64,000 bases of DNA from Spiribacter curvatus (GTDB taxonomy: Bacteria; Pseudomonadota; Gammaproteobacteria; Nitrococcales; Nitrococcaceae): the NCBI RefSeq assembly GCF_000485905.1, contig NC_022664.1, positions 930,001 to 994,000 on the forward strand, written 5' to 3'. The translations under genes were made by a program, and so were the position numbers. Of the stretch, positions 26,310 to 29,762 are shown one piece after another (positions within the stretch are counted from its first letter, which is position 1; each line of letters begins with the position of its first letter). A model generated the notes under the pieces. That model did not search any database. It saw nothing but the letters and a program-made list of their open reading frames with translations, and had not been told where the DNA came from.

Positions 26310-26546
26310 ATGTCATCAATACGATTTTACACCACTTCCGGCTGTCATCTCTGCGATGAGGCGTATGCCATGCTCGTACCGGTCGCTCAGCGACGCGGAC
26401 ACAGCATTGAGCGGGTCGACATCATGGACGATCCGCGGGCGGAAGCGGCCTACGCCGAATCGATCCCTGTGGTTGAGTGTGAGGGCCGGGCTGAAGCGCT
26501 GCGCTGGCCATTCGATACCGCATCGCTCTACCGGTACCTGCCATGA
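26310..26546 (+). CDS. Glutaredoxin-like protein (DUF836 family)
   Basis: A 78-residue thioredoxin-fold protein: beta strand IRFYTTSG, active site C-H-L-C, and the cis-Pro motif SIPVV. The arrangement matches the DUF836 small glutaredoxin-like family. No signal peptide, so cytosolic. Its last codons overlap the L,D-transpeptidase gene by ATGA. The function is unknown beyond probable thiol-disulfide exchange. Confidence 0.85.
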   Translation: MSSIRFYTTSGCHLCDEAYAMLVPVAQRRGHSIERVDIMDDPRAEAAYAESIPVVECEGRAEALRWPFDTASLYRYLP

Positions 26547-27127
26547 GCTTGCGGCGTCGGGTCGACGGGCTCCTCGCGATTGTTGCGGCTCTCTGCGTAA
26601 CGGGGCTGATGGGGGTTCAGACTGCTGCCTCGTCAGCGCCGTCCGCGGATGTCTGGGTGCGGGTGGATACCGGCAGCGAGATAACGGAGGTCTGGCGAGG
26701 CGATGAACGACTGCTACGGCTCGATGATATTGCCTTTGGACGCGGCGGCATTTCGGATCTGCACCTCAAGGGCGATCAGACCACACCGCGGGGCGAATAT
26801 CGGATCACTCACGTCAATGAGGAGAGCCGTTTCCACCGATTTATCGGAATCAACTACCCGACACTCGATCATCTCGATCGGGCAAGACAGCGCGGTGCGC
26901 TAACGGAAAGCCAATACCGTGCAATGCTGGATGATGGACTGAGGGATGGCCGATTCCCGCAGGATGGGATTCTTGGGGGGTATATCGGATTCCACGGCAT
27001 TGGCGACGGTGATCCTGATATCCACGCAGCCTTTCACTGGACCGAAGGCTGTATCGCAATGACGAATGCACAGATTGAGACCCTGCAATCGCTGGTTGGT
27101 GTGGGAACGCCGGTCGTGGTCGAGTAG
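26543..27127 (+). CDS. Exported L,D-transpeptidase (YkuD/YafK-like)
   Basis: A 194-residue protein with an N-terminal signal (RRRVDGLLAIVAALCVTGLMGVQTAASSAPSA region, cleavage near ASSA) and one YkuD domain. The active site is GYIGFHGIGDGDPD followed by HWTEGCIAMTN, giving the His and the Cys nucleophile; this spacing and TEGCIAM resemble the YafK/YkuD subgroup with broad roles, including DpaA-type cleavage of Lpp from peptidoglycan. It lies directly upstream of a Braun-type lipoprotein. Whether it attaches or removes the lipoprotein cannot be read. Confidence 0.85.
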   Translation: MSLRRRVDGLLAIVAALCVTGLMGVQTAASSAPSADVWVRVDTGSEITEVWRGDERLLRLDDIAFGRGGISDLHLKGDQTTPRGEYRITHVNEESRFHRFIGINYPTLDHLDRARQRGALTESQYRAMLDDGLRDGRFPQDGILGGYIGFHGIGDGDPDIHAAFHWTEGCIAMTNAQIETLQSLVGVGTPVVVE

Positions 27128-27173
27128 GGTCACAGGGGTTGAAAGACGTCCAGCGGCGCGCAATCATACTGAC

Positions 27174-27202
27174 GACATTTATGGCGTTGGATCGCTGATA
27201 AT
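27174..27202 (+). promoter_or_regulatory. Possible sigma70 promoter of the lipoprotein gene
   Basis: A -10 box GATAAT (5/6 to consensus) at 27197-27202, with a weak -35 GACATT 17 bp upstream at 27174-27179. It lies about 47 bp before the lipoprotein ATG. The position in the only noncoding gap before a normally highly expressed gene favours it; the -35 is poor. Confidence 0.4.
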
Positions 27203-27248
27203 GTCAGGTCAGGAAAGAACGTCATATAAGAAATCAAGGAGTTTCATT

Positions 27249-27518
27249 ATGAGCCAGACACTTAAATCCATGCTTAAACTCAGTGCCGCAGCGGCCTCCA
27301 TGGGCCTGCTGGTTGGCTGTGCCTCGCAGACCTCGATGCAGGACCTGCAGGCCGAGATCGACGACGTCCGTGGCCTTGCCGATTCCGCGATGGATGAGGC
27401 GAGCACTGCCATGATGACGGCCGAAGGCGCGGAAACATCTGCCGCCAACGCCAACCGCAAGGCCGACGAGAACAGCGAGAAGATCGATCGCATGTTCGAG
27501 GAGTCGATGTACAAGTAA
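27249..27518 (+). CDS. lpp: Braun-type murein lipoprotein (Lpp/OprI-like)
   Basis: An 89-residue lipoprotein. AAGGAG precedes the ATG. Signal peptide KSMLKLSAAAASMGLLVGC ends with a lipobox LVGC; Cys is the lipidation site and the +2 residue Ala allows outer-membrane sorting. The mature part is one long Ala-rich helix with heptad-like spacing (DLQAEIDDVRGLADSAMDEA) that should trimerise, and it ends in MYK. A C-terminal Lys is the peptidoglycan attachment residue of Lpp. Flanking L,D-transpeptidases fit this. Sequence is closest in style to OprI of Pseudomonas. Confidence 0.88.
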   Translation: MSQTLKSMLKLSAAAASMGLLVGCASQTSMQDLQAEIDDVRGLADSAMDEASTAMMTAEGAETSAANANRKADENSEKIDRMFEESMYK

Positions 27519-27542
27519 GACCCTGTCGAAAGGTCAGACCCA

Positions 27543-27568
27543 AACCCCGCTTTTGCGGGGTTTTTTTA
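27543..27568 (+). terminator. Rho-independent terminator after the lipoprotein gene
   Basis: A GC-rich hairpin AACCCCGC-TTTT-GCGGGGTT followed by seven T residues, 25 bp past the stop codon. It is the clearest terminator of any protein gene here and separates lpp from the convergent L,D-transpeptidase. Confidence 0.93.
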
Positions 27569-27579
27569 TGTCCAGTGGG

Positions 27580-28566
27580 TTATTGCGCCAGCCCGATCCG
27601 GCTTGGTCGCGCATCCCGTGAGATGACGGCAGGCATCCCGCTCGCCGTATCGACCACCTGCGCCAGCTGCTGATGATCAACCCGCGCCGGACCACGGTCG
27701 ATCATAGCGGCAATCGCCTTGACAGCGTCGCGCATTGGCGGTGGTTTCATCGGGTCGTAGGCGTTCTCGGCCTCCGGGGGGAGCACTGGATGCGCCTCGA
27801 TCAGCAGCCGCCCCGTTGCCCATCCCGCCTTGACCGGTTGATTGACGATGCTCACCTGGGCGCCTGAGGGCACCCGATTGAACAACGACTCGACGTCTTC
27901 GGGAAACATGCGAATGCAGCCATGGGTCACCCGCATGCCAATACCGCGCGGCTCATTGGTACCGTGAATGAGATAGGCACCCCCGGGGATACTCAGGCGC
28001 ATCTTGTGCCGCCCCAGCGGGTTCTGAGGCCCGGGCGGGACCGCATCCGGCAACGGCCGACCCTGCTGAGCGCGCTCAGTGAGAATCGACTGTGGTGGGA
28101 ACCAGTATGGATCCTCGGTCTTCTCGGTAATACGTGATTCTCCGAGGGGGGTGCTCCAGTCCATACGGCCGACACTGATTGGGTAGGTTTCCACCTGTCG
28201 TACCTCCCCGTCTGCGGCATCCGGATAGTAGTACAGCCGCATTTCGGCGATATTCACGACAACGCCCTCGCGTGGGGCATCAGGAAGGACATAACGACTG
28301 GGAATAACAATCTCGGTACCCGCGCCGGGCAACCAGACATCAACTGATGGATTCGCGCGACGCATTTCCTCATAGCCAATACCGTGTTGGCGCCCGAGTG
28401 CGAGCAGCGTTTCCTCGCGCTCGGCCTCCACGCGCTTGATCTGACCGACGACATCGACGCCGGGAGGCGGCAGCGGGAAACTCAGTGCAGCGACCGGCGG
28501 TGAGAGCAGAAGCCACCCGATAAGCCAACCGATATTGATGATTGAGCGACCTTTCCGCGTAAGCAT
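27580..28566 (-). CDS. L,D-transpeptidase with LysM-like domain (ErfK/YbiS/YcfS/YnhG type)
   Basis: A 328-residue exported protein. Signal peptide around INIGWLIGWLLLSPPVAALS; a LysM-like segment at about 55-90 (LLALGRQHGIGYEEMRRANP, PGAGTEIVIPS); a YkuD domain starting GVVVNIAEMRLYYYP with the active site HGTNEPRGIGMRVTHGCIRM; then a Pro-rich and helical C-terminal tail. This architecture is that of the E. coli enzymes that link Lpp to peptidoglycan or form 3-3 crosslinks. Convergent with lpp, 12 bp past its terminator, which favours a role as Lpp-anchoring enzyme. Confidence 0.92.
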   Translation of the reverse strand: MLTRKGRSIINIGWLIGWLLLSPPVAALSFPLPPPGVDVVGQIKRVEAEREETLLALGRQHGIGYEEMRRANPSVDVWLPGAGTEIVIPSRYVLPDAPREGVVVNIAEMRLYYYPDAADGEVRQVETYPISVGRMDWSTPLGESRITEKTEDPYWFPPQSILTERAQQGRPLPDAVPPGPQNPLGRHKMRLSIPGGAYLIHGTNEPRGIGMRVTHGCIRMFPEDVESLFNRVPSGAQVSIVNQPVKAGWATGRLLIEAHPVLPPEAENAYDPMKPPPMRDAVKAIAAMIDRGPARVDHQQLAQVVDTASGMPAVISRDARPSRIGLAQ

Positions 28567-29266: not shown

Positions 29267-29420
29267 TCGATAATCGCCCCCGTCGGTTCCGAGGGAGGGA
29301 TTGATTCGGCCCTCCGGGCCTCACCCTTCGGGCGCATCGCTGCGCGACGCGTCCCAATCGCCAGCCGGCGATTGGTCGAACCCCATCTGCCTGGCTCCGG
29401 GGGTTCGAACCCCGTCAGTC

Positions 29421-29461
29421 AGACACAAAAAAGGGGCCTACGGCCCCTGTTCTGTGTCTGG
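29421..29461 (-). terminator. Terminator hairpin in the distal repeat unit
   Basis: Read on the minus strand: CAGACAC ... AGGGGCC-GTA-GGCCCCT followed by six T, closed by GTGTCTG. An identical structure occurs in the other unit 175 bp away. Confidence 0.8.
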
Positions 29462-29495
29462 CGGAGAGGGAGGGATTGATTCGGCCCTCCGGGCC

Positions 29496-29561
29496 TCACC
29501 CTTCGGGCGCATCGCTCCGCGACGCGTCCCAATCGCCAGCCGGCGATTGGTCGAACCCCAT
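29496..29561 (-). other. 21-codon open frame in the proximal repeat unit (uncertain)
   Basis: ATG at 29561 to TGA at 29496, beginning MGFDQSPAGDW and ending DAPEG. The copy in the other unit (29321-29386) differs by one base, which is synonymous (CGG/CGC, Arg). There is no convincing ribosome site, and the region also forms stable stems, so translation is doubtful. Confidence 0.25.
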
Positions 29562-29595
29562 CTGTCTGGCTCCGGGGGTTCGAACCCCGTCAGTC

Positions 29596-29636
29596 AGACA
29601 CAAAAAAGGGGCCTACGGCCCCTGTTCTGTGTCTGG
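29596..29636 (-). terminator. Terminator of tRNA-Ser in the proximal repeat unit
   Basis: Directly after the CCA on the minus strand comes a long imperfect hairpin, CAGACAC...AGGGGCC-GTA-GGCCCCTTTTTT...GTGTCTG. The inner stem with its T run (29602-29623) is a standard intrinsic terminator; the outer arms make one extended stem and could guide 3'-end processing. Confidence 0.85.
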
Positions 29637-29723
29637 CGGAGAGGGAGGGATTCGAACCCCCGGAGCCCTTTCGGACTCAGCGGATTTCAAGTCCGCCGCA
29701 ATCGACCACTCTGCCACCTCTCC
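29634..29723 (-). tRNA. tRNA-Ser (anticodon UGA)
   Basis: A 90-nt class II tRNA on the minus strand: acceptor GGAGAGG paired with CCTCTCC, D-arm GGCAGAGTGGTCGATTGC, anticodon loop CTTGAAA (UGA), a long variable arm, T-arm GGGGGTTCGAATCCC, and an encoded CCA (29634-29636). It reads UCN serine codons. Confidence 0.96.
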
Positions 29724-29733
29724 AGAGGAATGA

Positions 29734-29762
29734 ATTGTCCATCCGGTTGGCGCTGAGGGCAA
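29734..29762 (-). promoter_or_regulatory. Possible promoter of tRNA-Ser
   Basis: On the minus strand TTGCCC (29757-29762) and GACAAT (29734-29739) are separated by 17 bp, with the tRNA 5' end 10 bp past the -10 box. Both hexamers match 4 of 6 bases. It touches the end of pyrD; cotranscription with pyrD is the alternative. Confidence 0.45.

Follow-up and report, generated by a model that had tools for sequence, protein, structure and literature searches.

An array behind tRNA-Ser(UGA) of Spiribacter curvatus belongs with RtT and is probably built around a hairpin-rich DNA element housed in tRNA-gene loops

The tandem array behind the tRNA-Ser(UGA) gene of the window (by which we mean the whole 64-kb stretch of DNA analysed) is probably a member of the RtT repeats, with a unit built around what is probably a short, hairpin-rich DNA element that has loops of tRNA genes as its home; we put this reading at about 65%, after lowering it slightly for a damaged Ser(GGA)-like gene and for the reported expression of RtT relatives (both described below). 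A bolder version, which we hold tentatively and at somewhat less than even odds, is that a widespread DNA element of about 73 bp targets tRNA-gene loops, probably as single-stranded DNA hairpins, and persists because its installation leaves the broken copy with an intact tRNA next to it. In this version, classical rtT would be the form found downstream of tRNAs, and arrays of broken 5' halves in front of tRNAs would be the mirror image. Both Rfam and the annotation of E. coli treat rtT as a small RNA; it may be a DNA parasite of tRNA genes. If the core is a DNA element housed in tRNA loops, three things would be accounted for: the presence in each repeat of precisely the 3' end belonging to its own tRNA, the recurrence of one core after Ser, Arg, Gln, Tyr, Lys and Glu tRNAs, and the variation in copy number. 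Two questions would then be open to direct test: whether RtT should count as a gene, and by what means tRNA genes withstand a parasite that breaks up the loop most conserved in them.

The tRNA-Ser(UGA) gene is on the minus strand, so that 'behind' means leftwards in the window. Read on that strand, the gene (29723-29634) is followed by unit 1 (29633-29459) and then by unit 2 (29458-29291), which is 7 nt shorter than a full unit. Tandem Repeats Finder placed the array at 29291-29652, with a period of 175, 2.1 copies, 98% matches and a score of 710, the highest among its four rows for the 64-kb window. Compared on the plus strand, the units 29291-29465 and 29466-29640 differed at two positions, 29342/29517 and 29390/29565, confirming two near-identical 175-bp units with two mismatches behind tRNA-Ser(UGA), as an earlier, sequence-only reading had described. 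The recurrence of the last 19 nt of the tRNA, noted in the same reading, was also found, exact in unit 1 and as 12 nt in unit 2 (Table 1); the source of this tail is the tRNA from position 58 to the 3' end (29634-29652). Each unit starts with a terminator-like hairpin right after the CCA or its copy, and continues with the inverted variable/T-arm, GGGGTTCGA, the 73-bp core and the tail copy. The core of unit 1 is placed between TTCGA and A58 of a copied T-loop, and three of its four predicted hairpins have GNA triloops closed by C-G.

Table 1. Features of the array behind tRNA-Ser(UGA), in window coordinates.
Feature	Position	Strand	Basis
tRNA-Ser(UGA) gene, CCA encoded	29634-29723	minus	ARAGORN, Rfam
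Unit 1 terminator-like hairpin, directly after the tRNA CCA	29597-29633	minus	
Unit 1 anti-arm, inverted copy of the tRNA variable arm/T-arm	29568-29588	minus	
Unit 1 second copy of the T-arm 5' half, GGGGTTCGA	29551-29559	minus	sequence
Unit 1 73-bp core element	29478-29550	minus	predicted four hairpins
Unit 1 exact 19-nt copy of tRNA positions 58 to 3' end, including CCA	29459-29477	minus	
Unit 2 terminator-like hairpin	29422-29458	minus	
Unit 2 anti-arm	29393-29413	minus	
Unit 2 T-arm 5' half, GGGGTTCGA	29376-29384	minus	
Unit 2 73-bp core element	29303-29375	minus	
Unit 2 tail copy, truncated (12 nt from tRNA position 58); array end	29291-29302	minus	

Two plus-strand open reading frames, 29301-29756 (151 aa) and 29476-29733 (85 aa), run antisense across the array and the tRNA. 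They were set aside as spurious proteins and could be a source of protein mis-annotation. Elsewhere in the window, a degenerate 12/18-bp tandem repeat is present near the start (156-226), and two YkuD (L,D-transpeptidase) proteins are encoded close together on opposite strands near the tRNA (26543-28566).

The RtT model of Rfam (RF00391) aligned over positions 1-130 of 130 to both units, with 28.7 and 22.2 bits, below its 45-bit cut-off. A copy behind tRNA-Gln(CUG) in the same genome, which carries the tail of tRNA-Gln in place of that of tRNA-Ser, reached 45.7 bits, above the cut-off. We also used R1, a covariance model trained on 19 cores from this genus and the order it belongs to. It matched all four repeats of E. 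coli K-12 tyrTV, one of which sits between tyrT and tyrV, with 35.6-40.5 bits, and these matches give a period of 178 for E. coli rtT, against 175 in the window. Judged by sequence similarity, the homology of the window array with the RtT families is firm. The view of the array as rtT-like on another tRNA, based on its period and 19-nt overlap, was thus borne out. The additional claim that its sequence is different did not hold: RtT aligns over its full length (below the cut-off), R1 recognizes E. coli rtT, and the core shared with E. coli means that the difference amounts to divergence. Finding RtT behind another tRNA is therefore no novelty by itself, given the earlier work on RtT relatives.

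We considered the possibility that slippage at tRNA 3' ends repeatedly makes unrelated tandem repeats, a mechanism with which the local tails and the varying array number are consistent. This is hardly credible: genomes from Spiribacter-like ones to E. coli share a homologous core, and this rules out independent births of unrelated repeats. The 'recurrent repeat birth' proposed earlier therefore survives in the sense that the unit recurs behind different tRNAs with flanks from the local tRNA, but with one homologous core rather than unrelated births.

The host genome (1.93 Mb, a single contig) had five matches to R1 and, at E ≤ 1, six to RtT, of which one was weak and fell on a tRNA-Arg gene. 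Behind tRNA-Ser(CGA) there is a stretch almost identical to that of the array (99% over 198 nt), and tRNA-Ser(GCT) and a damaged Ser(GGA)-like gene are each followed by a partial copy. The exact core pattern is also present in six MAG contigs assigned to uncultured Spiribacter or uncultured Ectothiorhodospiraceae. One unit of the host genome, L003 (G000:C1:175505-175646), has no tRNA upstream. This tRNA-less unit carries the tail and the following bases of tRNA-Ser(GCT), and the Ser(GCT) locus L005 (G000:C1:810360-810520) ends after the inverted arm; the two may be one array split by a rearrangement.

The Ser(GGA)-like gene (G000:C1:1210497-1210579; L004, L157) is the only one of its kind found in the host genome, and it has a unit behind it. 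Its T-arm is altered, reading GGGTCAATCCC against GGGTTCGAATCCC in a relative, and neither ARAGORN nor Rfam called a tRNA there. The letters of its T-loop resemble the right end of the core, and TCAATCCC, from the altered T-arm, is also present at that end. Exchange between the gene and its own repeat may have caused the damage. No intact Ser(GGA) copy was found in the host genome, from which it follows that an intact tRNA does not always remain.

R1 matches were found in 37 of 59 relatives (E ≤ 0.01), in 130 of 370 genomes of the class, representing 109 of 272 genera (E ≤ 1e-3), and in 43 of 299 genomes of the phylum (E ≤ 1e-4), some of them outside the class; many of the sampled genomes are drafts. 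Behind tRNA-Ser(UGA), ten genomes of the genus contain one or two core copies, three of them two. The earlier reading had proposed to see whether the unit always sits behind tRNA-Ser and varies in copy number: copy number does vary, and the unit is also found behind other tRNAs.

Units located in the fetched loci made up 266 rows after filtering, corresponding to 260 distinct units in 192 loci. Nine matches were dropped from a batch of 94 (three duplicates at L088, one at L059 and five below 26 bits), one from a batch of 61 (23.6 bits) and eight, below 32 bits, from a batch of 129. All 260 units derive from R1, which contains GGTTCGA and AATCC and favours T-loop contexts. A second model free of T-loop letters, R2, was built from R1 matches and run on 24 genomes only; it is a sequence-only model, as RNAalifold found no pair on the broad all-family alignment. 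A called tRNA lies directly in front of 145 of the 260 units and further in front (130-700 nt) of 47. For the remaining 68, no tRNA was called upstream within reach, and 18 of these are interrupted tRNAs. The 145 first units follow tRNAs for Ser (93), Arg (24), Gln (13), Tyr (10), Lys (3) and Glu (2), proportions that are biased because the loci are mostly the best-scoring matches of a mainly Ser-trained model. Within the sample examined, rtT arrays are the commonest form of the element.

The flanks of the core are made of the local tRNA, a conclusion that is firm. Positions 58 to the end of the host tRNA were present with at most one mismatch in 96 of the 145 first units, and at least 10 nt of them in 116. 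In 121 cases the tail of the unit's own tRNA was a better match than the best tail from any other amino acid; in 9 it was equal and in 15 worse. The mean own-tail match was 15.4, compared with 8.2 (maximum 9.2) in 500 label shuffles; for Ser units alone it was 14.6, compared with at most 12.5 in shuffles. The tail copy starts at A58, and the base before it was C in 51 and T in 49 of 100 near-full copies, never the G57 of the tRNA. On the other side, the left flank of the core is TYGA in 247 of 260 units, a count favoured by R1 itself, though two cases in which the core lies in an anticodon loop also keep TYGA.

These two cases (L132, Ser(UGA), and L170, Ser(CGA)) belong to a group of tRNA genes that are interrupted by the core. 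Among the 250 units with enough upstream sequence, a similarity search found 18 in which the 5' part of a tRNA passes directly into the core, 16 times in the T-loop and twice in the anticodon loop. Every one of the 18 is followed by an intact tRNA of the same kind, which lies 33-114 nt beyond the core, or 506 nt beyond it in L130. The shared 5' part was 100% identical to that of the intact tRNA at the same locus in 12 of the 18, the others ranging from 79.8 to 98.3%, and none of the 18 keeps the 3' part through CCA as in the intact copy. L130 consists of three tandem units, each with a promoter stretch, positions 1-57 of tRNA-Gln, the core and a partial tail, followed by the intact gene. Such arrays mirror those of rtT, in that the 5' side of the tRNA is repeated rather than the 3' side; in the anticodon-loop cases, too, it is the 5' part that is duplicated. 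The model free of T-loop letters added two further interrupted genes, L252 (Ser) and L257 (Val). ARAGORN run on the joined flanks found 9 of 260, a low yield that is probably due to the absence of a full acceptor stem from most broken copies. The existence of interrupted tRNA genes beside intact ones is firm, and in open-licence papers we found no description of tRNA genes interrupted by this core.

The unit could instead be an RNA gene, co-transcribed with the tRNA, cut at the CCA and released as a regulatory RNA of about 155-175 nt, as proposed for E. coli rtT RNA; an RNA set free by tRNA processing was also one of the suggestions of the earlier reading. To its credit, rttR is annotated as an ncRNA in E. 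coli and an Rfam model exists, and the RNA fold of the unit is better than that of shuffles (z = -4.1). Expression is reported as well: PMC4986893 describes two RtT relatives of Actinobacillus expressed by RT-PCR, and Northern signals for most of the set. Several observations nevertheless make an RNA gene unlikely. A terminator-like hairpin lies ahead of the core in both units of the window, the last units of arrays end at varied points, and some copies in other genomes have no tRNA nearby. Of 5,426 complete E. coli genomes, 4,692 had at least one place matching a query with the E. coli core (median 3, maximum 10 among these), and 734 gave no match at the sensitivity used.

The pairing of the core also speaks against an RNA gene. 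With G-U and A-C treated alike in the scoring, the 1,030 pairs of the first core hairpin (118 clusters) comprised 986 Watson-Crick, 15 G-U, 14 A-C and 15 other pairs, whereas the terminator-like hairpins after tRNAs at the same loci showed a clear G-U bias, with 87 G-U against 16 A-C (108 clusters). The pairing of the first core hairpin is thus DNA-like rather than RNA-like. In the next hairpin A-C exceeded G-U by 50 to 13; this excess, taken for a time as an opposite-strand signal, was dropped after it had been traced to a fixed GAC..GCC motif in the examples, a motif that leaves the first hairpin as the only clean test. Of 559 hairpins in 184 clustered cores, 198 are closed by a C(GNA)G triloop; base-shuffled cores gave 10 of 843, and the regions after CCA 5 of 116. 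Extraordinarily stable DNA minihairpins with GNA loops are the subject of Yoshizawa 1997, to judge from its title as cited in PMC6479982. Treated as single-stranded DNA, the core of the window is predicted to fold into four hairpins (z = -4.4). We judge the core likely to be a DNA element whose niche is the loops of tRNAs.

A further part of the unit is the inverted arm copied from the host tRNA. Among the 82 first units of the first batch, a reverse complement of the T-arm and the preceding bases (at least 16 of 20 positions) was found ahead of the core in 45 and was absent by this measure in 37, the search window possibly missing short arms. In the 45, the five bases beyond the T-stem matched the unit's own tRNA at 4.20 of 5, compared with 2.68 in shuffles (maximum 3.11, 1000 shuffles), a difference inflated because the 45 had been chosen for a good match to their own tRNA. 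Two loci, L165 and L198, have a broken tail followed by its own inverted copy, which suggests fold-back copying next to a broken loop. A simple insertion leaves the inverted arm unexplained.

The arm might act as a folding switch, capturing the T-arm and the variable arm in read-through transcripts while the acceptor strand pairs with the copied 3' end, so that the array would tune tRNA output. The predicted fold of a precursor made of the tRNA and the unit does pair the T-arm with the anti-arm (z = -7.6), and both the frequency of the arm and its agreement with the own tRNA beyond the T-stem fit such a role. We give the switch only a slim chance. Over a third of the first units (the 37 above) have no such arm by the measure used, and over all 82, without preselection for own match, the anti-arm scored 14.4 with its own tRNA, 14.1 with others of the same amino acid and 10.9 with those of other amino acids. 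Moreover, mismatches outside one position were 9 G-U to 8 A-C (29 distinct pairs), so that no RNA bias is apparent. We regard the inverted arm as a trace of templated copying, for which a regulatory role is possible.

Within the reading of the core as a DNA element, the observations may be assembled as follows. The core would be placed after 5'-TYGA and before an A, that of T-loop position 58 or, rarely, one in the anticodon loop, and would move or be copied as DNA, probably via a single-stranded hairpin form. It would be tolerated at sites where the tRNA has been partly duplicated in tandem, so that one tRNA stays intact. In arrays upstream of a tRNA the broken copy would lack its 3' acceptor end, and in downstream arrays of the rtT type, as in the window, its 5' body. 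Under this scheme the 175-bp unit of the window would consist of tRNA positions 58-76, a terminator, the inverted T-arm, the T-arm 5' half and the core. The number of units would be changed by unequal recombination. A benefit for the host would not be needed, and any RNA would be a by-product of read-through.

The sequence-only reading had held that a unit scattered away from tRNA genes in relatives would be an ordinary dispersed repeat. Scattered copies do exist in three other genomes (G428, G478 and G158); in the host genome one of the copies found, L003, has no tRNA upstream. G428, which is outside the class, gave 106 matches to R2 at E ≤ 1e-4 among the 24 genomes searched; in 20 of these that were checked, no tRNA was called in their 401-668 bases, and these 20 copies lie in mosaic palindromic surroundings. 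In G478 (8 matches) and in G158 (8 of its 17), copies are within longer conserved repeats, and no tRNA was called at the 7 and 6 copies inspected, respectively. In G158 (C1, e.g. 387661-387728), the core is part of a longer dispersed repeat with near-identical flanks in the five copies compared.

In genomes outside the genus, likeness was 0.684 (n = 43 pairs) between cores at different tRNAs within a genome and 0.583 (n = 289) between cores at the same tRNA in different genomes; in G104, for example, the Ser(GGA) and Arg(ACG) units are 82% alike. Inside the genus, the value for different tRNAs of one genome was 0.768 (n = 46) when Gln and Arg were included and 0.849 (n = 34) for Ser only, compared with 0.801 (n = 130) for the same tRNA across genomes. 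This mixed likeness within the genus makes both concerted evolution and old vertical inheritance possible. A Y1 (RAYT) transposase was considered as the mover and rejected: the host genome had no match at E ≤ 1e-5, and no association between Y1 transposases and the element was seen in 59 genomes (Fisher p = 0.79; 0.37 outside the genus).

The array can be compared with several known systems. Many integration sites have a direct repeat of the tRNA 3' end that starts at the T-loop. The array shares with such tRNA-gene attachment sites a duplicated 3' end of this kind, and its repeats could be attL/attR-like leftovers of a tyrosine recombinase that uses the T-loop. The eight neighbouring proteins (by Pfam a dihydrouridine synthase, the two YkuD proteins, one without a Pfam match, a dihydroorotate dehydrogenase, a ParA-type ATPase, a DUF6231 protein and an alpha/beta hydrolase) include no integrase match. 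Unlike attachment sites, the array also has a 73-bp core, whose model has matches in 109 genera, and in the two anticodon-loop cases it is the 5' part of the tRNA that is duplicated. We therefore consider scars of integrative elements very unlikely.

REP sequences and BIMEs are, like the present element, palindromic and partly dispersed. PMC2965389 notes rtT-like sequences in BIMEs, and PMC12306157, a 2025 survey of REPs, lists rttR among REP-containing sRNAs. The element differs from them in having a tRNA loop as its main site and copied tRNA as its flanks, and in that the host genome has neither a match to a Y1 (RAYT) transposase nor many dispersed copies, as seen from the small number of RtT and R1 matches.

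Elements of the IS200/IS605 type and their short non-autonomous relatives insert as single strands, next to a fixed short 5' flank, and have hairpins. The core resembles them in its hairpins, in its position 3' of a fixed TYGA and in the absence of a clear target duplication beyond one A. It differs in having no coding sequence and no Y1 partner found, and in the tandem tRNA duplication beside its site.

With E. coli rtT and RF00391 the array shares a homologous core, its place behind a tRNA, the tandem copies and the 19-nt tRNA 3' end in each repeat. A tandem G-A motif is described for RtT in PMC7657543. The units of the window differ in scoring under the Rfam cut-off, in having tRNA-Ser as host and in possessing a terminator-like hairpin, and they contain a long inverted T-arm/variable arm in place of the shorter GGATGAGAA form of E. 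coli.
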